Both the position numbers and the translations under genes were made by a program. Under the pieces are notes generated by a model. It was given only the letters and a program-made list of their open reading frames with translations, made no database searches and had not been told where the DNA came from. Shown piece after piece: positions 1 through 21,990 of a stretch of DNA of 26,310 nucleotides; within the stretch, counting starts at the first letter, position 1; each line of letters starts with the position of its first letter. The stretch is from a virus: positions 1 to 26,310 of the IMG/VR virus record IMGVR_UViG_3300027973_000196, one strand, 5' to 3'.

Positions 1-387
1 TTGACGGCGCGGCTTATCTTCCGGTTTGTTGGGTACAGAAAGATGGGTCCAGCGATCAAACTCGCGAATGATCTGATCGTATCCCAGGCCGGACGCGATA
101 ATTGTTTTAACTACTTCGTCCGGTGTCATGCCTGGCACTCGAATATCTGCGGCGCATCCAATACGATGCTGGCTTGTATCCTTAGATCCTACTGCGTCAT
201 TGACTTGCTTAGATCTAAATGCTGAGTTGATGATGACGGGCTTATCTCCCAGGGCGCTCTTCACTTCTTCCAAGAAATCAGCCAGGCGTACCAAGTTTGC
301 CATCTCTGCATCGTTTGGTGTGTTGTCAAATTCACGGTGGTCGGTGTGGCTTAATTCTTCCAGGGTGAAATGCTCACTTAGGTTCAT
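1..387 (-). CDS. Peptidase M15A-type endolysin (C-terminus cut by window edge)
   Basis: The first 129 residues were read by hand from the minus strand; no stop is reached before base 1. The protein looks like a zinc peptidase of the M15A group, which cut cross-links in the peptidoglycan and serve as phage endolysins. The motif SAFRS (55-59) is followed by SQHRIGCAADI, giving H74 and D81, and by WTHLSV with H115. These are the three expected zinc ligands, and E109 or D111 could be the catalytic acid. The ATG at 387 has AGAGAG about 10 bases upstream. It overlaps the holin gene by 14 bases, a usual holin/endolysin pairing. There is no signal peptide, so release would depend on the holin. The family call is strong; the exact bond cleaved is inferred. 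Confidence 0.9.
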   Translation of the reverse strand, partial: MNLSEHFTLEELSHTDHREFDNTPNDAEMANLVRLADFLEEVKSALGDKPVIINSAFRSKQVNDAVGSKDTSQHRIGCAADIRVPGMTPDEVVKTIIASGLGYDQIIREFDRWTHLSVPNKPEDKPRRQ

Positions 388-3932: not shown

Positions 3933-4477
3933 TATAAAGTCCTTGCTAAACAGCCTTGTAGCCTTACCTGTGATTGAACTGTTGAATATGATGCTAGTGC
4001 TGTGTAATCGTAAAAGTATGCGTAAAGCTCTATTGTGTCTCCAGTACCGTTCATAGGTACTAAGGTAGTTATAACTGGACTAAACGAAGCCCCTGTGCCA
4101 GAAACAAAAGAGTTTTCAGTACTTAAATACGTACTACCATTTTTATAAATTAGTAAGGTAAAACCTATTTGCCTACCTGCAGTAAAGTCTATTCTTATTT
4201 GACCAGATATATTGTAGTAACCAGCAACTGTGGGTGTAAATGTAGATGATGCAAAATTATTATTTGTGTCGTATTGTTCTGTTTGTAATAATATTTTTGT
4301 AAGTGTATTGTTAGTTATAGTTTGAGATGATGATGGACTTGCACTAAAAGCTGGCATATTACCGCTAACCATTACATCACCAGTAGCGGCTGGTAGCGTA
4401 TGCGTAAAGTTACTAGCCGTTGCTGGCTCATTGATAGTTACTGAACCACCACCTGAAGAATTAAGTACGATGCTCAT
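3932..4477 (-). CDS. C1q/TNF-like jelly-roll fibre protein
   Basis: About 181 aa. After a short leader (MSIVLNSSGGGSVTINEP and THTLPAATGDVMVSG) comes a C1q-like trimeric jelly roll: MPAFSAS, then LLQTEQYDTNNNFASSTFTP, TVAGYYNISGQIRID and GDTIELYAYFYD. The 'AF.A........F.......F.P..AG.Y......' pattern is the C1q signature and is common in phage fibre tips. The frame opens upstream at a GTG (4489), but the ATG at 4477 forms an ATGA overlap with the stop of the main fibre gene and is preferred. It likely sits at or near the tip of the stalk made by the upstream gene; direct attachment is inference. Confidence 0.7.
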   Translation of the reverse strand: MSIVLNSSGGGSVTINEPATASNFTHTLPAATGDVMVSGNMPAFSASPSSSQTITNNTLTKILLQTEQYDTNNNFASSTFTPTVAGYYNISGQIRIDFTAGRQIGFTLLIYKNGSTYLSTENSFVSGTGASFSPVITTLVPMNGTGDTIELYAYFYDYTALASYSTVQSQVRLQGCLARTL

Positions 4478-6027
4478 AATATTATCCACCTTTGACCACT
4501 TGGTACGGTTACACTTGCGCCGCTATTGATTGTTACGGGGCCAACACTAAAACCATTTTTGCTGGTAGTGAGTGTATAACTTGCCGTAACTGTTGTCGCA
4601 TTTTCAAAGATAACACCACCAGCTTGTGCGCCACCTACTCCACCCCAGGCACCACCAACATATCCCTCAAAGGATGCAAGCGAGGAATTGTATCTAAAGT
4701 ATCCATTGGCCGGTGAGCCATCACGCTCGCCAGTTGTACCCGATGGAATAATTGATGATCCAGTAGCAGATGTTTTTGAAGTAATCGTTGATAGATTGAT
4801 TGATGCCGCACTAGCCGCCGCCGCAGTCGCACTACTGGCCGCGGATGTTGCTGAGTTGCTGGCATTAGTGGCAGAAGTGGCGGCGTTTGTTGCGGAAGTT
4901 GTTGCGGCAGTTGCCTGAGTTGTGGCCGTCGATGCTGAATTGCTTGCGTTGGTTGCACTTGTTGACGCATTGCTGGCAGAAGTCGATGCCGCGCTTGCAC
5001 TACTAGCCGCGTTGGTTGCACTTGTTGATGCGCCGCTTGCTGACGTACTAGCATTAGACGCCTGGGTTGTTGCAGTTGACGCACTATTACTGGCCGACGT
5101 TGCGCTTGTTGCCGCATTCGTCGCAGAAGTTGTAGCGCTAGTTGCCTGAGTTGTTGCAGTTGAGGCAGATCCGGACGCGCTTGTTGCTGAATTGGCCGCG
5201 TTCGTTGCTGAAGTTGACGCATTGCTGGCCGACGTACTAGCGCCACTTGCAGAAGTTGACGCATTTGTGGCCGATGTTGAGGCGTTTGATGCAGAAGTAG
5301 AGGCCGCACTAGCTGAACTAGCGGCCGCACTTGCTGATGCCGCGGCGGCAGTAGCAGATGAACCGGCGGCGGCCGCGTCCACTACCAGGTCCCACTTAGC
5401 GGAATCCGCATTCGAACTAATTGGCGTTGTGCCGACAGAAGTATGAGCAGTATTAGCGCGATATACGTTTGAATTACTAGAATCTTTTACCAGGTCACGG
5501 ACGGTATAAGCCTGACCAGCGGCCCAGTTACCACGCCAGTTACCAATCTCTTCACCAACAGTAGGATTACCAGTCGAATCAAATGCCAGGATCTTTCCAG
5601 CGCGGGAAGTTTGCACCGGCAATACCATATTGATAGAGGCCGGGTCCGTTACTGGAGCCAAGATCGCACGACCCAAAGCTTCAGCATTTTGCTGATTGAA
5701 AATGGTTTGCTGGTCCAGCTCTAAGTTTAGAGATGCCGCAGTAAAGTCGCCACCAGTTACGTAATCAGATGCACGGGTAATATCCCTGGCACCCACAATC
5801 GTGATCCTCTTAGTGGATCCAGGAGCAGTAACAAAGGTGACTGAGCCGGTACCGTTCGCATTGATCGTTACCGTGTAATCAGTTGTCAGCGTTTTGAGAG
5901 TTGAATCAACATACACGTCGATGTCAGTTTGCGCCAATATTTCAAAGGTAAATGCGTACGGCCCTACACCAGCCGAGCCGGTATAGACTGCGCGTCGCAC
6001 TACGGGTGATATTGGAAAATCAGCCAT
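4474..6027 (-). CDS. Tail fibre protein with T7-type N-terminus and Ala-heptad stalk
   Basis: 517 aa. Residues 1-140 match the T7 tail-fibre N-terminal domain that binds the tail (YTGSAGVGPYAFTFEI, DYTVTINANGTGSVTF, TAASLNLELDQQTIFNQQNA). Residues 164-213 look like a small carbohydrate-module-like insert (GNWAAGQAYTVRDLV...VYRA...AKW). Residues 222-403 are 26 perfect seven-residue repeats with Ala at positions 4 and 7. Residues 404-517 form the end, including GTTGERDGSPANGYFRYNS and a beta-rich finish of the type 'SYTLTTSKNG...GPVTINSG...VPSGQRW'. The C-terminus has no obvious large receptor-binding domain, so recognition may rest with the fibre-like proteins encoded just downstream. Another gene joins it by ATGA at 4477. 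Confidence 0.88.
   Translation of the reverse strand: MADFPISPVVRRAVYTGSAGVGPYAFTFEILAQTDIDVYVDSTLKTLTTDYTVTINANGTGSVTFVTAPGSTKRITIVGARDITRASDYVTGGDFTAASLNLELDQQTIFNQQNAEALGRAILAPVTDPASINMVLPVQTSRAGKILAFDSTGNPTVGEEIGNWRGNWAAGQAYTVRDLVKDSSNSNVYRANTAHTSVGTTPISSNADSAKWDLVVDAAAAGSSATAAAASASAAASSASAASTSASNASTSATNASTSASGASTSASNASTSATNAANSATSASGSASTATTQATSATTSATNAATSATSASNSASTATTQASNASTSASGASTSATNAASSASAASTSASNASTSATNASNSASTATTQATAATTSATNAATSATNASNSATSAASSATAAAASAASINLSTITSKTSATGSSIIPSGTTGERDGSPANGYFRYNSSLASFEGYVGGAWGGVGGAQAGGVIFENATTVTASYTLTTSKNGFSVGPVTINSGASVTVPSGQRWIIL
4819..5364 (-). repeat. 21-bp-period repeat encoding 26 Ala heptads
   Basis: The coding DNA repeats with a 21-base period across 546 bases, encoding heptads such as STSASNA, STSATNA, SNSASTA and TTQATSA. 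Ala is fixed at positions 4 and 7 and Ser or Gln at position 3; there is no break in phase. A higher-order pattern is visible: the pair SNSASTA-TTQA occurs at the 14th-15th and the 21st-22nd heptads, with a near copy (SGSASTA-TTQA) at the 10th-11th. Codons vary between copies, so this is protein-level repetition kept by selection more than a recent DNA expansion. The 3-4 spacing of Ala fits a tight, probably trimeric, coiled coil. Confidence 0.85.
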
Positions 6028-6077: not shown

Positions 6078-8573
6078 TTATTTCCTTCTTGGCGGGGGTT
6101 CCGCCGTTATTTTCTCAAAATCCGGGGCGCGTTCAGGTTCGGTATCGCCTGGCGCCCACCAATAGCGTTGGCCAGTTTCTCGTCTGTAACGTGCTTCCAT
6201 TTCCCGCATTCGTTGTTTAGCTTCAGGATCGCCCCAAATCTGTAAACGATCCAGGAGTTGACGCTCTAATGCCAGGCGCAAATACCATATTGAGGACCCT
6301 GGGGTATAGCGTCCACCGTATGAAATCAGCTCACGCATGAAGTGGGTATCCTTGCCAGTTGCCAATTCCTGAAGGTTGCCGATAGTTAAACGGCGCGTAT
6401 CGTCCAAGAATCCTACTACCGGGCCGGCCACGGTTTGCTCTAGGCCGCCGCCAAAACGGTTTACGTCATTAAATAGGAAGTCTCCCAAGATACCCAGGCC
6501 ACCGCCCTGGAGCAATGCCGCACCCCAAAACTCAGGGGTCATTACCGTACGGGGATCGCGCCCCTTGGTAACTTCTTTAAGTTGCATGGCCATGGCGCCA
6601 AATAGAGTTGTCGAGATAACTAGGTCAGCAAAGTACGCACCCTTCTTACCAAAGTTTTCCTGGTTCACGGCGCGCATTACGTGAGTGTTTAATAACGTAA
6701 CTGGGAAATTCTTATACATAGCGAACGACCTAGACAATTCACCCACAAACGTACCAGGGCGCGATTCTCCTACCAGCATGACGCGACCACGAACAGATGC
6801 CGATGGTACGGCAAACTCCGTCTCAGTCTGAATCATCTCTAGCATACGTGTCGCTAGATCGTCAGCGCGTCCTGGTTGCAGATCATTACGTAAGGCAATC
6901 TCTTCAGGGCGTAGGAATGTTGCGCCTTCGTGTTCGTATAAACCGGAAGAACGGATGACATCCCAATTACCCTCGGCCATGCCGTACCTGGTCAAAGTAT
7001 CCTGGAGCGGCTTGTCTAACTCATTGAATTTCTTACCAGCATTCTCGGCCAGGTATCCCATAAATTCCATACCAAAGGCCCAACGTCCGGCCTGGGTCCA
7101 TGGGGATAACCCTGTAATCCGCATGACGGTATCTGAAATGCGACGCGTGATTTCAGGGCCAGTCATATCACCTACAAAACGTGCCTGGGCAGTCGCAACG
7201 CTGGTCCAGTTTTCTGCGATCAATCCCAGGCGCGATGCCAGGCGTCCTTTTTCGTCAATGTTCAGCGGCACCAGGTTATCCATTACTCGCTTGATTACAT
7301 CGGATGCGGGTATTCCCGATGCTTTAGCGGCAATGCGCTGGAAGTTTAAGTCAGTCAATGCAGATACCGCGGCCGCGCCAAGTTGCGCCGATTGTAGTAT
7401 TTGACGCAAGCCGGCAAAGCCCCTGGCTACGTTGCCATCGACTGGCGATGCAGTAGATCCATTTAGGATCGCGTACATAGAATCAAACATTCCCATCTGA
7501 GAGTTGGCCTTATCGACCATCTTTCCTTCAGGATTATTTGCTTCTTTAAGCTTGGCGTCTTGCATGACGGTTTGATGGATATAGCGAATAGTCGCATTAG
7601 GGTTAGGCCCTAGTATCTCCATCATGGATATATCCCGTGACATTCCTTCTAGGTGATTAACCATGGTAACGAACGGTTCGGGATTTCCAAATTTCTCCTG
7701 GTACTCTAGCCAAGCATCAGCATTCTTAAATGATAAGAATCGATGATCCTGGTTACGGTTAGCCAGGGACCGGCCACCACCAGCTCCGGACGGTTTAACC
7801 TTATTCCATCCTTCCGTCGCAATAGAATCAAAGACTTGTGCTAGGGCCAGCTCTAATCTTTCGGGCGTAAACTTTAGGCCGCTACGCTCATCAATCATCT
7901 TTTGAGGATCTAAACGCTCGCGAATAAAGTTTGTCCACTCTTCGCGCCCAGCCTTGCGTACAAGCATCGAATCATGGATCTGAGGCATACCCCAATCCTT
8001 ACGATTTGGAATGGCACCACCGGCCGCATTAAAGCGCTGGCGGGCATAATCGGCCGCAGTTGACCAGGACTGTGCTAATTCTTTTGCGGCGGCCGATCCG
8101 GTATCTTCTCCGAATACTTCGCGCACTAGGTCCTTGGCCATAGCTTTATTACCCAGGCTACCAGTTGCGCCGCGACGTCTAAAGGTTGCCAGGACGTCAT
8201 CCATCTTAGAATAGATTTGACCGAGTACGGCTTTGCGCCTGGCTTCCACGTTGGAATACTTGGCAAACTCATCTCGATCTAGTAGTGCCTGGGCCGCTTT
8301 ACCCAGGCTTTCGCCATTGGCATACTGGTTTAAATCAAAACTAATCTTTTGCCAGTTGCGGATCTGCAACATTTTGACGCGCTTACTTTCAATGGCTTCT
8401 TTTTGCAATGCGTCAAACGTATCCTTGGCGGCCTGATTGCTGGCCTGTTCAGGACCCATCTTTGTCGCGTACTCTGCCTCTAGCTCATCAAATAGGCCGC
8501 GGGCTTTTGCCGCCTGGTTAGCTGAGATCTTGCCTTCGTTCTCGCCATTATCAATACATTCTCTAAAGCTCAT
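6078..8573 (-). CDS. Large internal/ejection-type virion protein (831 aa)
   Basis: 831 aa, largely helical. The N-terminal 150 residues are charged helices (SFRECIDNGENEGKISANQA). The middle holds conserved-looking stretches such as NRNQDHRFLSFKNADAWLEY and DISMMEILGPNPNATIRYIH. The C-terminal third contains hydrophobic segments around 645-660 (LVISTTLFGAMAMQ) and 684-698 (ALLQGGGLGILGDFLF), then TPGSSIWYLRLALERQLLDR and GQRYWWAPGD. The last blocks recur in large phage virion proteins that follow the gp16-like gene and may contact or cross the membrane during DNA ejection. I chose the ATG at 8573 over the GTG at 8582 because it makes an ATGA overlap with the upstream stop and has AGGGTG six bases before it. 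The precise role is inferred. Confidence 0.65.
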   Translation of the reverse strand: MSFRECIDNGENEGKISANQAAKARGLFDELEAEYATKMGPEQASNQAAKDTFDALQKEAIESKRVKMLQIRNWQKISFDLNQYANGESLGKAAQALLDRDEFAKYSNVEARRKAVLGQIYSKMDDVLATFRRRGATGSLGNKAMAKDLVREVFGEDTGSAAAKELAQSWSTAADYARQRFNAAGGAIPNRKDWGMPQIHDSMLVRKAGREEWTNFIRERLDPQKMIDERSGLKFTPERLELALAQVFDSIATEGWNKVKPSGAGGGRSLANRNQDHRFLSFKNADAWLEYQEKFGNPEPFVTMVNHLEGMSRDISMMEILGPNPNATIRYIHQTVMQDAKLKEANNPEGKMVDKANSQMGMFDSMYAILNGSTASPVDGNVARGFAGLRQILQSAQLGAAAVSALTDLNFQRIAAKASGIPASDVIKRVMDNLVPLNIDEKGRLASRLGLIAENWTSVATAQARFVGDMTGPEITRRISDTVMRITGLSPWTQAGRWAFGMEFMGYLAENAGKKFNELDKPLQDTLTRYGMAEGNWDVIRSSGLYEHEGATFLRPEEIALRNDLQPGRADDLATRMLEMIQTETEFAVPSASVRGRVMLVGESRPGTFVGELSRSFAMYKNFPVTLLNTHVMRAVNQENFGKKGAYFADLVISTTLFGAMAMQLKEVTKGRDPRTVMTPEFWGAALLQGGGLGILGDFLFNDVNRFGGGLEQTVAGPVVGFLDDTRRLTIGNLQELATGKDTHFMRELISYGGRYTPGSSIWYLRLALERQLLDRLQIWGDPEAKQRMREMEARYRRETGQRYWWAPGDTEPERAPDFEKITAEPPPRRK

Positions 8574-11500
8574 TTTACGCACCCTATCAAGCGCTCTAAC
8601 ATAGACTTGTCTTGTTCAAAGTCTGCCAAAATTTCTCTTACAGTTGTCACTTCCGATACTCTTTCACCAGTTTGTGGATCAATTCTTTCCGCTACCGGTA
8701 TCTCTAAATCCATTAGATCCTGATTGCGCTTGCCGTTCGTGCCGATCTGTGCTAATGTTAAGTCAGGAGTGTCCTTTATGAAATCATCTAAAAAAGTAGA
8801 ATTTCTCGATGTTGAAGGTATCCCGGTGACTTTAGGTTCGGTTCCCGGTTTCGCTGGCCTTTGCGCCGCCTGGGATAAATCTTCCCCAAGAGCCTTCCCA
8901 GCTGATTCAGCGTTACGTAACGGTGCGCCGATTGATAAGGCCGAGTTCGAACGATTGAGAACGGCCGCTAACGCTTCATCGTAAGCCGGCTTCATTTCAG
9001 CATTCATTGAATCAATTCTTGCTTGTTCCGCTTTAGTAGGTTGACGATTCTCGCTAGAGATCATACGTAACATTTTGTTGCGTTCAGCATATAGATCGTG
9101 ATAGTTATCTTTGACGGCCATAAATTCCGGGACGCTAATTTGTATCTCAGCAATATGCCCTTCAATCTCAACATTCATTTTAATGTCGCGATAACCGCCA
9201 TCCATTGATTTCATTTGTGGATCTAATAGATTTCTGAATCCACTATCTAAAACATTATGTACGTTGCGTATTTCCTTTAGCGCGACGCCAGCTTGTTGAA
9301 ATGTATCAACGATTAATGTTGCTCTTAGTATGTCTTTGATTTGACTTGCATCACCAGCGTAATCAAATAGAATTTTTTCTACTGCACGGCTTGATCCTTT
9401 TAGATCTGCACCTTTGTATTCTGCATTGACCAGGTTAGCAAGTTCACGGTTTACTCTATCAAAATTTTCTTTTCTGATTGCCGCGTCCTGGTACAAGCCT
9501 CGCAACACTTCCTGATCTTGTGGCGCAAGCTTAATGATGTCATCTTCATTTAATGACTTAGCAACATACTCATCAACGGTAATCGGTTTTCCGCCGCCAG
9601 GGATCTCATCTAGCAATGAGTTTTGCATAAGATCGCCCTGGGCTTTTGCACCAGCTGATCCAGGGCCTTCGTCAAAAGTTTTTAGCTCGTCTGCGCCTGG
9701 TTCTGCGATTCGATTGTTTTGCGCCGGAGTTGTGAAATCGCCGCGATCTCCGCCATTTGGTACCCTTTCATAACTCCCGTCCTCAATTGCTCTCCGGACA
9801 CTTTCGGTAAATTCGCGGACGTAAGCTTCAGTTTTGGTTCCGCCCCCGTCTTTCCACGCCTTGGCGATTCGGGTGAGATTGTCTGAGATGGGTCCCCGGA
9901 CGTTTGCGTTATTTTCAATGATAGCGATTGCTTTGCCATAAATAGCCTCTTTTTCTTCGTTAGTCATTTTGGCCAAAGTGTTGCCGGCCTTCTCAATATC
10001 AGTTGCATTTTTTACCAGGGTCGCAAACAGTTCGCGATCCTTACGCATTTCTTTCATGGCGCGATCAAGAATCTTGGCCCGCTCCAAGAATAAGCTTTCT
10101 GCAATATCTTCGTCGCCAAATAATCCGCCTTGTTCGGTTTTTATAAAACCGGCCTCTCTTGCCTGGCGTACGATTTGCTCTGCCTGGATCGCATTCGCTG
10201 GTTCCAGGCGTTTAAGTAATTGAAGGATTGCAAGTTGCTGAGTTTCTTCTGTAATGTACCGACCAACAATTGCGCCATAGTGTGGCGGCACTACATCATT
10301 AACGACTGCGTTAAATGCTTTAGGACCAAGCGTCGCAAGTTCATTTGCTTGTTTTACAAACTGCGAACGTGGCGGCAATGACTTAATTAGTTCAGGCGCG
10401 TCTCTTAATATCTTGGCCGCATCGACCAGGGTGCCGGTGCCTTCTGCTAGGTTCTTGCCAGCGGCCGTTGCCCTGGCATAACCAGGATCAAATCCATCTT
10501 TTTCGCGAATCTTAAAAGCATAAATTTGAATGTCTTGTGTTGGGTCAGCTTCTTGCAAGCGCTTTGCCAGGCCCAGGCGTTGATGGCCGTCAGCAATAAA
10601 TGTCCGTCCGTCTGCAAATTCATAAACGATTGCCGTATTGGCTTTAACTGGATCCCACTTGCTGATGTCCTTTAATCTTTCTGTAACGCCCAGGACATCG
10701 CCACCAGCTTTAAACTGAAATAGCTCTGCATTGACCAGGAGATCTTTTGGTTTGTACGCAAAAATCTCATTGTTTAGGTTGTCATGAAAATAAATATCGG
10801 TAGAGCGAACGATTGCGCTTTCAGGCGGCACAGTTGTGATCTTAGTTGAATCACCATTGTTTACTGCGTTATAAGACTGATCGATGCGGGCATTATGTTC
10901 TAAGTTGCCGGTGTCATCCTTTAAAACATTGCCTTGATTTGTAGTGTCATAAATACCATCCATCTCTTTCATCAGCTTTACATCGGGATCCATCTCATAC
11001 GGACGACCCTCTTTAGCGGCCTTGGCTTTGCCTAGTGCCTCAATGCCATTGATGAGTTGATTTTTAGTAAATTGGAATGCGGGTTTTGCACCCATTAAAA
11101 CGCCGGTGACTGCGCCAGCTCCAGCGGCGGCCATTCCCACGTTAGTAAAAAATGTTTTGTAATCGTATGGAAGATCGAGTTGCTTATACCAGTCTGCGAC
11201 TTCTGTTTGAATAACCGCTTCTGATCCAGCTCCAATGACTGCCTGGCGTAATACTTCTTTTGCAATATTGCTAGATCCACCACTAACTACCATGGCCGCA
11301 AGGTTTGGCGGATCAGTTATTGATGAGACTATGCCACCAGCCATTTCACCTAAAAATCCAGTAAAGGTTTGGCGAGATGCTACATCAACGTTAACGTCTC
11401 CGGATTTGATTGCGCTCTTTTTTGCTCTTTCAAATATTGCGTCATTGTCAAGACTAATCAAATCCGGAAAAACGTCAGGTTGTTGTTTGACAAAATCTAG

Positions 11501-11791
11501 TATTTGCTTTGATGAATAGTTGTAACCTCTAATTGGCGTATCAGGGGATGCCGCGTAACCGCCAAGATAGTTACCTGGGTTATTAAACTTTTTCCCAGTT
11601 TTTTCTTGTATCTCTTTGACAATTGGATCCCATTGCTCACGTAAATTTACGGGGCGTGAATCACTACGGTTAAGCTTTAAAGTTGCCTGGTATGCCGCAT
11701 CATAGTTTTCAGAAAAGCCAGTATCTTCTCCACCACCAAGAGGTTTGAATGGAGTTGCCGTTGGGTTTATTTCGTCAAAAACGAAACTCAT
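8570..11791 (-). CDS. gp16-like ejection protein with ParB-like and RelA/SpoT-like segments
   Basis: 1073 aa; by position and size the counterpart of the T7 gp16 internal core protein. Residues 145-235 are Gly/Ala-rich and hydrophobic (EMAGGIVSSITDPPNLAAMV, AAAGAGAVTGVLMG), as in proteins that form the ejection channel. Residues about 345-430 resemble the ParB/DdrB-like fold, with DGRTFIADGHQRLGLAKRL at 394-412. A helical part follows (437-670). Residues 790-905 look like a RelA/SpoT nucleotidyltransferase: K798-x7-K806, IKDILRATLIVD with D820, GGYRDIKMNV with Y867, AEIQIS with E882 and Q884, and H898. D820 and E882 line up with the Mg-binding Asp and Glu of (p)ppGpp synthetases. Lys replaces the usual His after the GYR motif (K871). 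No lytic transglycosylase motif is visible. Domain calls are by eye; activity is not shown. Confidence 0.75.
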   Translation of the reverse strand: MSFVFDEINPTATPFKPLGGGEDTGFSENYDAAYQATLKLNRSDSRPVNLREQWDPIVKEIQEKTGKKFNNPGNYLGGYAASPDTPIRGYNYSSKQILDFVKQQPDVFPDLISLDNDAIFERAKKSAIKSGDVNVDVASRQTFTGFLGEMAGGIVSSITDPPNLAAMVVSGGSSNIAKEVLRQAVIGAGSEAVIQTEVADWYKQLDLPYDYKTFFTNVGMAAAGAGAVTGVLMGAKPAFQFTKNQLINGIEALGKAKAAKEGRPYEMDPDVKLMKEMDGIYDTTNQGNVLKDDTGNLEHNARIDQSYNAVNNGDSTKITTVPPESAIVRSTDIYFHDNLNNEIFAYKPKDLLVNAELFQFKAGGDVLGVTERLKDISKWDPVKANTAIVYEFADGRTFIADGHQRLGLAKRLQEADPTQDIQIYAFKIREKDGFDPGYARATAAGKNLAEGTGTLVDAAKILRDAPELIKSLPPRSQFVKQANELATLGPKAFNAVVNDVVPPHYGAIVGRYITEETQQLAILQLLKRLEPANAIQAEQIVRQAREAGFIKTEQGGLFGDEDIAESLFLERAKILDRAMKEMRKDRELFATLVKNATDIEKAGNTLAKMTNEEKEAIYGKAIAIIENNANVRGPISDNLTRIAKAWKDGGGTKTEAYVREFTESVRRAIEDGSYERVPNGGDRGDFTTPAQNNRIAEPGADELKTFDEGPGSAGAKAQGDLMQNSLLDEIPGGGKPITVDEYVAKSLNEDDIIKLAPQDQEVLRGLYQDAAIRKENFDRVNRELANLVNAEYKGADLKGSSRAVEKILFDYAGDASQIKDILRATLIVDTFQQAGVALKEIRNVHNVLDSGFRNLLDPQMKSMDGGYRDIKMNVEIEGHIAEIQISVPEFMAVKDNYHDLYAERNKMLRMISSENRQPTKAEQARIDSMNAEMKPAYDEALAAVLNRSNSALSIGAPLRNAESAGKALGEDLSQAAQRPAKPGTEPKVTGIPSTSRNSTFLDDFIKDTPDLTLAQIGTNGKRNQDLMDLEIPVAERIDPQTGERVSEVTTVREILADFEQDKSMLERLIGCVK

Positions 11792-14046
11792 TTGATGCCT
11801 TCTCTTTGTTTAACGCGTTCAGCAAGATCCCTAAAGTTAACTGTTAGAGCGGATCTATCTTTGATGGTAAATGCTAGTGGGCTTGTTTTGCCGCGATAAT
11901 CTTCGTAATACCATACGGCGCGATCTGCGTCGATAAATGCGGGATAACCCTTACGTAAGCGCTCAATAGTAAACTTTCTGCCCTGGTCATCTTCGGGCAA
12001 ACCATTAGATACTGCGGCAAAATCATCATACGTTGCGCGCTTAATGATGTCTTTAAAACTGTCCTGGGCAACGTTGCCTGGAATTGGAATGCGTGTACCT
12101 TGATACTCAATGATGCCGCCATAGGGTTTGCCATTTTTAGCGACTGTCATTCCGGATGCTTCCTGGAATGCTTGCTTATACATATCATCATCAAATACAG
12201 TTTTACCGGCAACAATAGCGCGCTGAGTGTAAATATTATCAGCCGTTGAAATAATTGCAGAGCGTGTCTTAGGTGCAAAAGCATAGGCGCTACCTAATTG
12301 GTCAGCAATAACGCTTTTCTTGGCCATGGCATCGCCCGATCCTTCGAATGGTTTATTGCCGGCTTGAAGTTGCTTCATACCATTTAATGAATCGTACACG
12401 GTTTGCTTGTTGGCACCGGCAATAACTAATCCACCAGCATGAGCAAACTCCGGCGCAAACTTAGAGATCTCGCCCATAGCATTTCTTGAATCTTTTCCGA
12501 ATCCTTGATTCATTACACCAAGCAATGCAATTTGCTGGTCAGGACTAGCGCTTTGCAAAAATGTAGTTAATGCGCCAGCTTCATCCTGGGAGAAGTATTT
12601 GGGCGTTATGCTCATGTTTGCCGCAAAAGTTTTAGATTGCGTAATGCGCTCGCTAATTTGTTTTGTCAGATCTACTGGGGCCGCGGCAAAATTAAGCGTC
12701 TTAACTTCGGTAAATCCAGTTTGATTCATGTAGCTAACCGGATCTTTTTCCAGCATAGATGTTTTATGGCTTAATGATTTTTGAGCTACATCAATCAGCA
12801 TTGCTTGTTCAAGAGACGCGCCACCAGTTGTTTTTGACTGTGCATCGCGAACCCAGTCGCCCAATTGCATGGGTGACATTTTATTAAATCCAATAGAGTT
12901 TTGACGCAATACACTTAGGTAATTAACCTGGCGCATAGTTGGATCATTTGCCGGTAATCCCAGGCTACGGGCGCGGCCCATTATTTCATTGACTACGCCT
13001 TCGCTTGGTACCTGGCCAAGAGTAATAATGCGTAATGATTCGCTTACGTCCGTCTTTAACTCTGTACGCAACGCTCTAAACTGTGCGTCCCTGGAGCGTA
13101 GATCCGCCTCAATCTCATTGACCAGGGCTCCCATTCTGTTTACATCAATGCCGCGAGTAACGCGATCTTGCTTTAATGGATTACCTTCTTTGTCGTATAG
13201 ATCGCCAATAGGACCACGGCCCAGGTCGGCCTTGACTTGTTTTAAGAATGCGGCTTTGTTAGGAGACTTTTCATATTCTCTTCTAAATCGCGCCATGTGA
13301 GCTTGCTCTGCAACGCTTTGCATTTGACGCTCTACTTCTACTGGACCAAAACCACCGCCAATTGCAAATTGTTTTAGAGCTTGTAATTCCTGAAATAGCA
13401 TTGCCTCTGAGCCGTTAACTCCGCTTGACATGATACGAATTGCGTCCTGGCCACGTTGATCTAATCCGGCCAGGGTTGTTGCTTTTAATTGTTGTGCTAC
13501 ACGATCGTTATGCTTTTCTGAAATTTCCAAGAAACCAACATTTTTCATGCGATCTAAATCGCCAGCTATGCGGCCACGATATTTAGGATCTACTAAATCT
13601 ACTACCGATTCCAGGCCATCTCTTACACCAGCCGTATCCGCTATAAATTGAATTGGATCGGCATTGGGGTCATTCTTATAGGCCTGGATTTTTTCGCTAA
13701 CAAGACGACGGCCATCGTTTTGCAGTTGCAAAATAACCAATTCATTAGCTTGATCGTATGCGGCTTTGTCAAAAGCAGAGCGCGGCATTCCACTTTCTTT
13801 TGTAGATTGCAATACTTGTTTTGCTTTTTCTGCCGTATCTACTGACGCGCGACCTTGTTCCTCGGCTTGTTCCATACCAATCTTGCCGGCATATTTAATT
13901 ACCGCATCAAGCGAGCGTTGTTGCGATTCAGCCAGGTTTCGGCTTTCGCGCATAATCGGGACATATTCCACGCCAGGCATTTGAGCTGGCCTAAATGGGT
14001 CAATTGCGACGCCTGTTGATTGATACCTTGGAAGTCTCTCTGCCAT
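11788..14046 (-). CDS. gp15-like internal virion protein (752 aa)
   Basis: 752 aa, close to the 747 aa of T7 gp15, and in the same place between gp14-like and gp16-like genes. It is mostly helical and polar, with long charged stretches (GMEQAEEQGRASVDTAEKAK, KHNDRVAQQLKATTLAGLDQ). The C-terminal region (ATYDDFAAVSNGLPEDDQGR ... RKGYPAFIDADRAVWYYEDY) resembles the end of gp15-type proteins. T7 gp15 forms part of the inner core and of the tube through which DNA enters the cell. Its ATG is two bases after the gp14-like stop, and its own stop overlaps the next ATG (ATGA). The sequence itself is not distinctive enough to name without the context. Confidence 0.7.
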   Translation of the reverse strand: MAERLPRYQSTGVAIDPFRPAQMPGVEYVPIMRESRNLAESQQRSLDAVIKYAGKIGMEQAEEQGRASVDTAEKAKQVLQSTKESGMPRSAFDKAAYDQANELVILQLQNDGRRLVSEKIQAYKNDPNADPIQFIADTAGVRDGLESVVDLVDPKYRGRIAGDLDRMKNVGFLEISEKHNDRVAQQLKATTLAGLDQRGQDAIRIMSSGVNGSEAMLFQELQALKQFAIGGGFGPVEVERQMQSVAEQAHMARFRREYEKSPNKAAFLKQVKADLGRGPIGDLYDKEGNPLKQDRVTRGIDVNRMGALVNEIEADLRSRDAQFRALRTELKTDVSESLRIITLGQVPSEGVVNEIMGRARSLGLPANDPTMRQVNYLSVLRQNSIGFNKMSPMQLGDWVRDAQSKTTGGASLEQAMLIDVAQKSLSHKTSMLEKDPVSYMNQTGFTEVKTLNFAAAPVDLTKQISERITQSKTFAANMSITPKYFSQDEAGALTTFLQSASPDQQIALLGVMNQGFGKDSRNAMGEISKFAPEFAHAGGLVIAGANKQTVYDSLNGMKQLQAGNKPFEGSGDAMAKKSVIADQLGSAYAFAPKTRSAIISTADNIYTQRAIVAGKTVFDDDMYKQAFQEASGMTVAKNGKPYGGIIEYQGTRIPIPGNVAQDSFKDIIKRATYDDFAAVSNGLPEDDQGRKFTIERLRKGYPAFIDADRAVWYYEDYRGKTSPLAFTIKDRSALTVNFRDLAERVKQREGIK

Positions 14047-14048
14047 AA

Positions 14049-14588
14049 TTACGTACTCTTATCTGTTACTGGGGCCGGCGAACTTCTGCCAGACATTGAA
14101 GAATACGCCGCGGCCTGGCCAACCGTGCCAATTGCCTGGTACAAGCCAGCTTGTTTTGCCGCCGCTCCTGATGCGCGTAAAATGTCTGCGTTTGCCGATC
14201 CGGAATATCTATAAACGTTGGCCTGGAATCCAGCAGATGAAGATGCTAATTTTGCATTTTCCTGGGATAAATCAAAATCGGTATAACCTTCGCGTAATGC
14301 GTAAGTTTGTAATGATCCAGCTGATCCGCTAAATGGATCAATTGCACCGGCACCAGCTCTCGCTCTTACAGTTGAGAGTGTGCGATTAATGTTTACAAGT
14401 GTTTTAACGCCTTCCTGGCGGGCGCGAATTGCCTCGGTACGCCCTTGCATTTCAGCTTGTTGTGCTTGAAAACCAGCCTGGATGTTAGCCTGTTCAGCCT
14501 GGGCGTTGTAAATTTTTTGCTGAGTTTTGCCCTGTTCATATTGCCCATAGGCGGATACCAGCATTGCGGCGATTGCGACGGCGGCCAT
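14049..14588 (-). CDS. gp14-like internal virion protein (179 aa)
   Basis: 179 aa. It begins with a hydrophobic Ala-rich stretch (MAAVAIAAMLVSAYGQYEQG), then a Gln-rich helix (KIYNAQAEQANIQAGFQAQQ) and small-residue-rich segments. T7 gp14 has 196 aa, a similar Ala/Gln-rich helical make-up and the same place after the tail tubular B gene. In T7 this protein leaves the virion first and enters the outer membrane. The gene lies two bases after the tail tubular B stop and two bases before the gp15-like start. The call rests on order, length and composition together. Confidence 0.7.
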   Translation of the reverse strand: MAAVAIAAMLVSAYGQYEQGKTQQKIYNAQAEQANIQAGFQAQQAEMQGRTEAIRARQEGVKTLVNINRTLSTVRARAGAGAIDPFSGSAGSLQTYALREGYTDFDLSQENAKLASSSAGFQANVYRYSGSANADILRASGAAAKQAGLYQAIGTVGQAAAYSSMSGRSSPAPVTDKST

Positions 14589-21449: not shown

Positions 21450-21716
21450 TTACATTCCGCCAGTTGTGTTGGTGCCACCTGATCCAAGTGTATCCGGCAC
21501 GATGCCAAGAGCTGGATTTTCGCGTTGCTGGCTAAATAATAAACGCATCCCGCCAGTTTGACGGGCGCGCTTGGTAGCTTGGAGACGTTGTTGCTGGGCT
21601 TTTTCTTGTGCCGTAAGACGCTCCTCTTGTTTTTGCTGATTGGCCGCAATCGCTGGATCAGGAGCCGGTGCCGGTTGTGGTGCTGGTATTGATGGTGAGC
21701 TAAATAGTCCGCCCAT
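21450..21716 (-). CDS. Proline-rich small protein, paralogue of next gene
   Basis: 88 aa. It opens MGGLFSSPSIPAPQPAPAPD, then a Gln-rich helix (QQKQEERLTAQEKAQQQRLQ), then RARQTGGMRLLFSQQREN and a Gly/Thr-rich tail. The layout 'MGGxFS - Pro-rich - helix - RARxxxGxRLLF' is shared with the gene just upstream, so the two probably arose by duplication. Small MGG-Pro genes are common between terminase and portal in podoviruses. No function is known to me; the N-terminal Gly-Gly and Pro run suggest a flexible adaptor in the head. Confidence 0.6.
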   Translation of the reverse strand: MGGLFSSPSIPAPQPAPAPDPAIAANQQKQEERLTAQEKAQQQRLQATKRARQTGGMRLLFSQQRENPALGIVPDTLGSGGTNTTGGM

Positions 21717-21726
21717 AATTTTCTCC

Positions 21727-21990
21727 TTACGCTAAAGTGTTTTGACCTGGGCCAGCGTCGCCACCCAATGTCATTTGATTTTGACCAAGACCAGCCGAAC
21801 GGTCCGCATTAAACAAAAGCCTGGTACCCATACGGCGACGTGCGCGAGTATTTGATGCCAGTTTGTTTTCCTCGGTAGTTGCCTTTACTGGTTCCGGTGC
21901 CGCTGGAGCCGGTGCCGGTGCCGGTGGTGGTGGTGGTGCTGGTGGTGGTGCTGGTGGTGGCGAGCTTGGCCCACTAAATATTCCGCCCAT
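21727..21990 (-). CDS. Proline-rich small protein, paralogue of previous gene
   Basis: 87 aa. Starts MGGIFSGPSSPPPAPPPAPP, has a Pro/Ala run to about residue 33, then a short helix (VKATTEENKLASNTRARRRM) and GTRLLFNADRSAGLGQNQMT. The Pro run is encoded by near-repeats of ccaccagc-like units. Its start overlaps the end of the GNAT-like gene by 17 bases. Compared with the 88-aa neighbour the ends are alike, but the middle differs (Pro/Ala here, Gln-rich helix there). Confidence 0.6.
   Translation of the reverse strand: MGGIFSGPSSPPPAPPPAPPPPPAPAPAPAAPEPVKATTEENKLASNTRARRRMGTRLLFNADRSAGLGQNQMTLGGDAGPGQNTLA

Follow-up and report, generated by a model that had tools for sequence, protein, structure and literature searches.

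The ParB fold is described in the accessible text of PMC12704722 as a versatile NTP switch, in a survey based on PF02195 and TIGR00180. In phages, DdrB-like ParB and RelA/SpoT domains occur in polyvalent proteins according to the accessible part of PMC5512222, which gives the DdrB-like lineage a specific Asp/Asn after strand 2 and an extra helix with a Tyr, and it is to these proteins that the idea of the first-pass annotation of our locus, a ParB/DdrB-like motif in a virion protein, belongs. The closest described system by gene position is that of T7, where gp16-C is described as binding DNA irrespective of sequence and as ratcheting the genome in; that it clamps the genome near 850 bp is put forward as a hypothesis (available excerpts of PMC8954989).

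The window analysed here is a virus record of 26,310 bases (a freshwater phage, recorded as linear and perhaps incomplete). Read in the direction of transcription, its minus-strand genes run from the large terminase (phrog_2) through the portal (PF12236), the capsid (PF19821) and tail tube genes to a gp14-like gene, a gene in the gp15 position, an ORF of 1073 aa, a phrog_684 virion protein and the tail fibre genes (Table 1). The 1073-aa ORF sits in a T7-like ejection-gene cluster, and the position among virion genes first claimed for it is borne out by its neighbours, which match virion PHROGs and Pfam families. The peptide on which the first-pass annotation rested occupies exactly residues 394-412 of this ORF, and the domain drawn around it, residues 345-430, corresponds to about 10502-10759 of the window. 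Elsewhere in the window, a tail fibre-like protein (4474-6027, minus strand) carries long Ala/Ser/Thr/Asn repeats, and two small Pro/Ala-rich genes between the portal and terminase genes (21450-21716 and 21727-21990, minus strand) are adjacent and alike and are possibly paralogues.

Table 1. Features of the 1073-aa ORF and its neighbours, in window coordinates
Feature	Position	Strand	Remarks
Module-bearing ORF, 1073 aa	8570..11791	-	Between gp15-position gene and phrog_684 virion gene
Reported peptide DGRTFIADGHQRLGLAKRL, residues 394-412	10556-10612	-	Inside the 1073-aa ORF
ParB N-terminal (nucleotide-pocket) domain, predicted, residues ~343-450	10442..10765	-	AlphaFold2; VIA 7bm8
Box I equivalent FQFK...GVTERL, residues 358-373	10673..10720	-	Q359 and K361 near-invariant in A3
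Box II equivalent G402-H403-Q404-R405	10577..10588	-	GERR in chromosomal ParBs compared
Box III equivalent AGKN(447)LAEGTGTLVD, residues 444-457	10421..10462	-	ENxQR in ParB, K-N here
ParB/Noc-type HTH DNA-binding domain (predicted), residues ~452-550	10142..10438	-	VIA 6y93, hhalign
Conserved β-hairpin (LFGD) and long helices, residues ~534-672	9776..10192	-	AlphaFold2
RelA/SpoT-like nucleotidyltransferase fold, residues ~739-949	8945..9577	-	Variable cargo position
C-terminal tail, residues 1024-1073, near-terminal Cys	8573..8722	-	Common to relatives with other or no cargo
Neighbour in T7 gp15 position	11788..14046	-	phrog_992
Neighbour resembling T7 gp14	14049..14588	-	PF24072, below cut-off
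Neighbour, virion structural protein	6078..8582	-	phrog_684

The conserved family comprises ~340 residues around the peptide, and after one seed round at least 570 viral contigs were found to encode a relative. In prokaryote genome contigs, 105 pattern matches yielded 39 loci, many with Alphaproteobacteria in the title. A tblastn search of 50,697 phage records matched 23, in which the domain itself was matched in Dunaliella viridis virus SI2 (two records), Ruegeria phage 45A6, an uncultured Mediterranean phage and 17 P-SCSP1 isolates, and the match in Bordetella phage PHB04 (two records) is confined to the RelA/SpoT-like part; in the named phages found here the module is annotated as hypothetical only. 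To compare residues we aligned 64 diverse members (alignment A3), namely the 67 representatives left by clustering at 70%, minus four (loci L015-L018), plus the window. H403 and R405 stand in 64/64 of these, a count that is circular because GH[QN]R was part of the pattern that had retrieved most members, and we therefore collected loci afresh with patterns drawn from the second half of the module. Two such scans gave 160 loci, many of them near copies and some on contigs already sampled, and G-H-x-R is present in all 159 that cover the motif, so that the conservation of H403 and R405 among relatives, set beforehand as the test of the first-pass reading, was found. Outside the search pattern, Q359, G368, A444 and N447 are invariant in A3 (64/64 each) and K361 and D457 nearly so (63/64 each); a second Ala is among the further invariant positions. 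This conservation indicates that the peptide is more than a chance motif.

AlphaFold2, run on the 64 sequences of A3, returned a model with a pLDDT of 90.8 and a pTM of 0.82, in which a ParB N-domain is followed by a helical domain, a β-hairpin and long helices. The best structural matches were not to an unrelated fold: in a Foldseek search of the PDB, ranks 1-18 were all Noc, ParB or Spo0J (best E 5.7e-5, prob 1.00; three at E<=0.001). In VIA comparisons, where whole-module rmsd is large (5-13 Å) and unrelated helical proteins reach Z 7.9, the module matched ParB 7bnk (Z 9.7), Noc 7nfu (Z 8.4, rmsd 5.4 over 192 residues, model 3-215) and KorB 8qa9 (Z 7.5 over 189 residues), the N half matched ParB 7bm8 (Z 8.9, rmsd 2.6 over 94, model 8..118) and the HTH half matched the Noc DNA-binding domain 6y93 (Z 8.3, rmsd 3.4 over 96, model 119..217). 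Given this helical background the HTH match is weak on Z alone, and the assignment is carried by the ordered two-domain match together with the sequence comparison below. The predicted fold is that of ParB, with a ParB N-domain leading directly into a ParB/Noc-type HTH domain, and model and structure searches thus agree with the ParB/sulfiredoxin superfamily fold first proposed. The helical region said to follow the motif is also present, but as a ParB/Noc-type HTH domain rather than a DdrB-type one, and because these helices form that domain the unit spans residues ~343-550; the original extent of 345-430 held the motif part within limits that were too narrow. A counterpart of the C-terminal dimerisation domain of ParB was not identified, the fold search barely covering the part beyond residue 550.

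Pfam and NCBIfam scans of the window protein detected no ParB model, and a sequence search of PDB chains returned no ParB, its matches being to unrelated proteins such as coiled coils and designed helical repeats. PF02195 was above cut-off in 0/14 carrier phage records. A DUF1015 match (E 0.03-0.05) spans the ADGHQR stretch of the window protein. Weak Pfam matches to Lipase_chap and Arm_3 in the same protein were set aside as helical noise. A single sub-cut-off partial match to PF02195 in the record of locus L095 is placed outside the module, the L095 protein having none at E<=0.1. With hhalign, the module and 13 chromosomal-type ParBs from 16 genomes carrying the family were collinear over 188 columns (P=3.8e-6), the N half giving P=4.6e-4 and the HTH half P=5.2e-5, and 0/200 column shuffles reached the full, the N-half or the HTH-half score. 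Crossed pairings of the N half with the HTH half gave P 0.01 and 0.25; as controls, eight other phage families gave P 0.13-0.83, reversed ParB 0.7 and five further shuffles 0.038-0.81.

A second route to ParB passes through gp43 of Salisaeta icosahedral phage 1, annotated as a 'structural protein', which tblastn matched to the family domain at E 1e-7. The A3 profile scores 32.3 bits over its residues 1818-1899, and PF02195 is above cut-off over residues 1823-1916, overlapping the A3-profile match, so that gp43 forms an independent bridge between the A3 family and PF02195. It has FQPR where the family has FQFK, which indicates that FQ-K of the family stands for the Q-P-R of Box I. Like the window protein, gp43 is large, and under its annotation as structural it has ParB_N and family-profile matches; unlike it, it belongs to a tailless phage, and the family profile covers the N-domain alone, with no HTH seen. 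Over its 2319 aa (L427:864-7823) gp43 also holds a methyltransferase-like region beside the ParB_N domain.

Set against Noc, chromosomal ParB and KorB, the window family has the two domains in the same order, the GxxR of Box II, the N of Box III and the Q of Box I. It differs in reading GHxR and KN where ParB has GERR and ENxQR, canonical residues that we did not find in the family, and in being embedded in a large late-gene protein, with neither ParA nor a canonical parS found. Titles of PDB entries among the Foldseek matches include the ParB mutants Q52A and E93A, which we take to alter catalytic residues, with putative equivalents in the window protein. As the pocket and the HTH are kept and the ParB glutamates are replaced, the simplest reading is an NTP/DNA-binding switch with hydrolysis altered or lost. 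Our preferred interpretation, to which we give an even chance, is that the module is a divergent ParB-like, NTP-switched DNA-binding unit in an ejection-cluster protein and acts on incoming DNA.

The resemblance of fold and HTH to ParB and KorB would also suit a phage-plasmid ParB with a genuine role in partition or regulation. The canonical parS sequence had 0 matches in the window and 11 records, and a palindrome census that took in six related contigs besides the window showed none with three or more copies in one contig; palindromes common to the closest relatives apparently lie in the same places and require no special explanation. ParA (PF13614) was found in 0/14 phage records, many of them fragments, and no plasmid match was found. 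These negative searches speak against a partition role, and they give no loading site; with the module embedded in late genes as well, we regard a phage-plasmid ParB as highly improbable.

The DdrB-ParB family (PF18763) is like the window family in belonging to the ParB/Srx superfamily and in occurring among phage late genes in large multidomain proteins, as far as the accessible part of PMC5512222 describes it. The two clear members examined read S-G-N-G-R, whereas the window family has G-H-x-R plus an HTH. PF18763 was present in 3/249 genomes searched, two strong matches carrying SGNGR; no A3 member reached E<=0.068 against it among the matches listed (best 25 of 61 families), and the window domain was not matched up to the limit of E 10. 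The DdrB-ParB assignment of the first-pass annotation was accordingly not borne out by these comparisons. The window protein does have the character of a phage polyvalent protein, with ParB plus HTH and a RelA/SpoT-like part in one chain and in a late-gene context. It might be that the unit is an NTP-regulated, sequence-nonspecific DNase or nickase delivered against host or rival DNA: nuclease activity is reported for several domains of the ParB fold and has been proposed as the role of DdrB-ParB (accessible part of PMC5512222), and the same protein holds a RelA/SpoT-like effector domain. We consider this unlikely, because neither profile nor motif marks the unit as DdrB-type, the HTH is kept, which fits binding better than cutting, and Pfam gives the window protein no extra nuclease motif.

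The association with virion genes extends to relatives. At least 34/67 representatives adjoin one or more homologues of the virion genes of the window, and at least 18/67 lie exactly between the gp15-position and phrog_684 genes, both figures being lower bounds as the loci are cut. Among 64 N-terminal regions, Pfam gave three portal counts by member family (Phage_portal_2 two, Portal_Mu one), and PHROGs, whose families may share members, gave portal, transglycosylase, endolysin, phrog_342 T7-gp16-type (two) and virion RNA polymerase (one). In locus L180 a portal (25-512) is followed by the module at 710-1041, in L099 a transglycosylase match (413-559) precedes it and in L117 endolysin and peptidase matches do so. 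By these matches, the module is fused to portals, cell-wall hydrolases and a virion RNA polymerase in other phages. Very large module proteins (2500-4200 aa) with long further regions occur in L016, L103, L109, L123 and L018. Portal fusions and a location within the head and tail genes would also be expected if the module served as a structural element, in the internal core or the portal, for binding packaged DNA and were inactive after ejection, but a passive scaffold needs no invariant nucleotide pocket, and we think this quite improbable. From gene order and the fusions in relatives we infer that the 1073-aa protein is packaged and ejected with the DNA.

The RelA/SpoT-like part first reported in the same protein was recovered by fold search, the best match being Tas1 6ox6 (E 6.3e-6, prob 1.00), followed by exported or small alarmone synthetases and Rel/SpoT chains. 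Its model has a pLDDT of 71.3, a quality probably lowered by the underlying alignment (A8), which mixes RelA/SpoT-type and Zeta-type C-terminal regions. Pfam matched Zeta_toxin in 15/41 chosen C-terminal regions (the count is taken from Pfam, as sorting by regular expressions caught RelA-like members but its P-loop pattern caught none of the Zeta members that Pfam found), and 38/169 complete C-terminal regions, contig duplicates included, are under 150 aa, a further 38 ending at contig ends. The near-terminal Cys tail recurs across many C-terminal regions. The module is thus constant while the cargo changes between a RelA/SpoT-like domain, a Zeta-type kinase and none. In the window, 8573-9649 (minus strand) has the appearance of an exchangeable cargo slot between the ParB-HTH module and the tail; C-terminal regions of the family also include ART-PolyVal, helicase and LPD matches, and two relatives (L012:6364-10095 and L030:7936-11685) have an additional segment of ~150 aa before the RelA/SpoT-like part, for which no identity was found. 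In Bordetella phage PHB04 (L019), a gene adjoining the portal resembles the window protein in its RelA/SpoT-like part, and a separate nearby gene is annotated as (p)ppGpp synthetase.

Such variation of cargo (RelA/SpoT-like, Zeta-type kinase or none) would be compatible with an NTP sensor that steers the attached cargo or protein refolding in the cytoplasm, the HTH being a structural relic, and so would the poor conservation of the HTH recognition-helix residues across the family, few HTH-helix residues being fixed compared with an invariant pocket. The persistence of the module with a short or absent C-terminal extension argues that it has a job without cargo, and leaves a sensor of this kind rather doubtful. 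Under the preferred interpretation of an NTP-switched DNA-binding unit, the pocket would bind an NTP, CTP or ATP, this binding would switch the hold of the HTH unit on DNA, and the HTH unit would grip, slide on or protect the genome of the phage as it enters; the RelA/SpoT-like domain would be a separate, exchangeable cargo that makes or alters nucleotides in the infected cell.

By analogy with T7 gp16-C, we propose that the module may serve a similar clamp or ratchet step in the window phage. T7 gp16 (phrog_342) and the window protein are alike in gene position, after a gp15-like gene, and in a proposed DNA-handling role; they differ in that T7 gp16 is without the ParB module and the window protein is without the phrog_342 match that T7 gp16 itself gives. 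With the A3 profile the module was found in neither T7 gp16 nor P-SSP7 gp16, so that ejectosomes do not all include it; T7 gp16, considered as a family member, scored 5.7 bits over a helical stretch only and was rejected. Gene 21 of Prochlorococcus phage P-SCSP1a does bear the module, differing from the window gene in its length of 2572 codons and in its C-terminal region, and the accessible text of PMC9860041 offers the speculation that g20/g21 of this phage, which its authors could not annotate, are internal virion proteins; in the available part of the P-SCSP1u cryo-EM paper the terms 'core protein' and 'gp25' were not found. A more specific version, which we advance tentatively and regard as unlikely, makes the module an NTP-gated, ParB-type sliding clamp that is loaded onto the leading genome end and serves as clamp or ratchet during entry. 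Our literature searches found no paper combining ParB with the ejectosome, and found neither ParB, internal virion protein and ejection together nor ParB, virion, phage, ejected and helix-turn-helix together, which does not prove that such a paper is absent from print.

On these data the ParB N-domain and the HTH travel jointly in portal, ejection and polyvalent proteins of a large environmental phage population, in a module that standard domain profiles miss, and the exchangeable cargo suggests a delivery platform for effectors. What grips the leading portion of a T7-like genome and pulls it into the cell is unsettled in the available excerpts of PMC8954989, and a ParB-type DNA switch encoded in the corresponding gene neighbourhood is a concrete candidate. 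If the sliding clamp were to prove true, it would give a molecular identity, in the phages that carry it, to an activity only inferred for T7 gp16-C.
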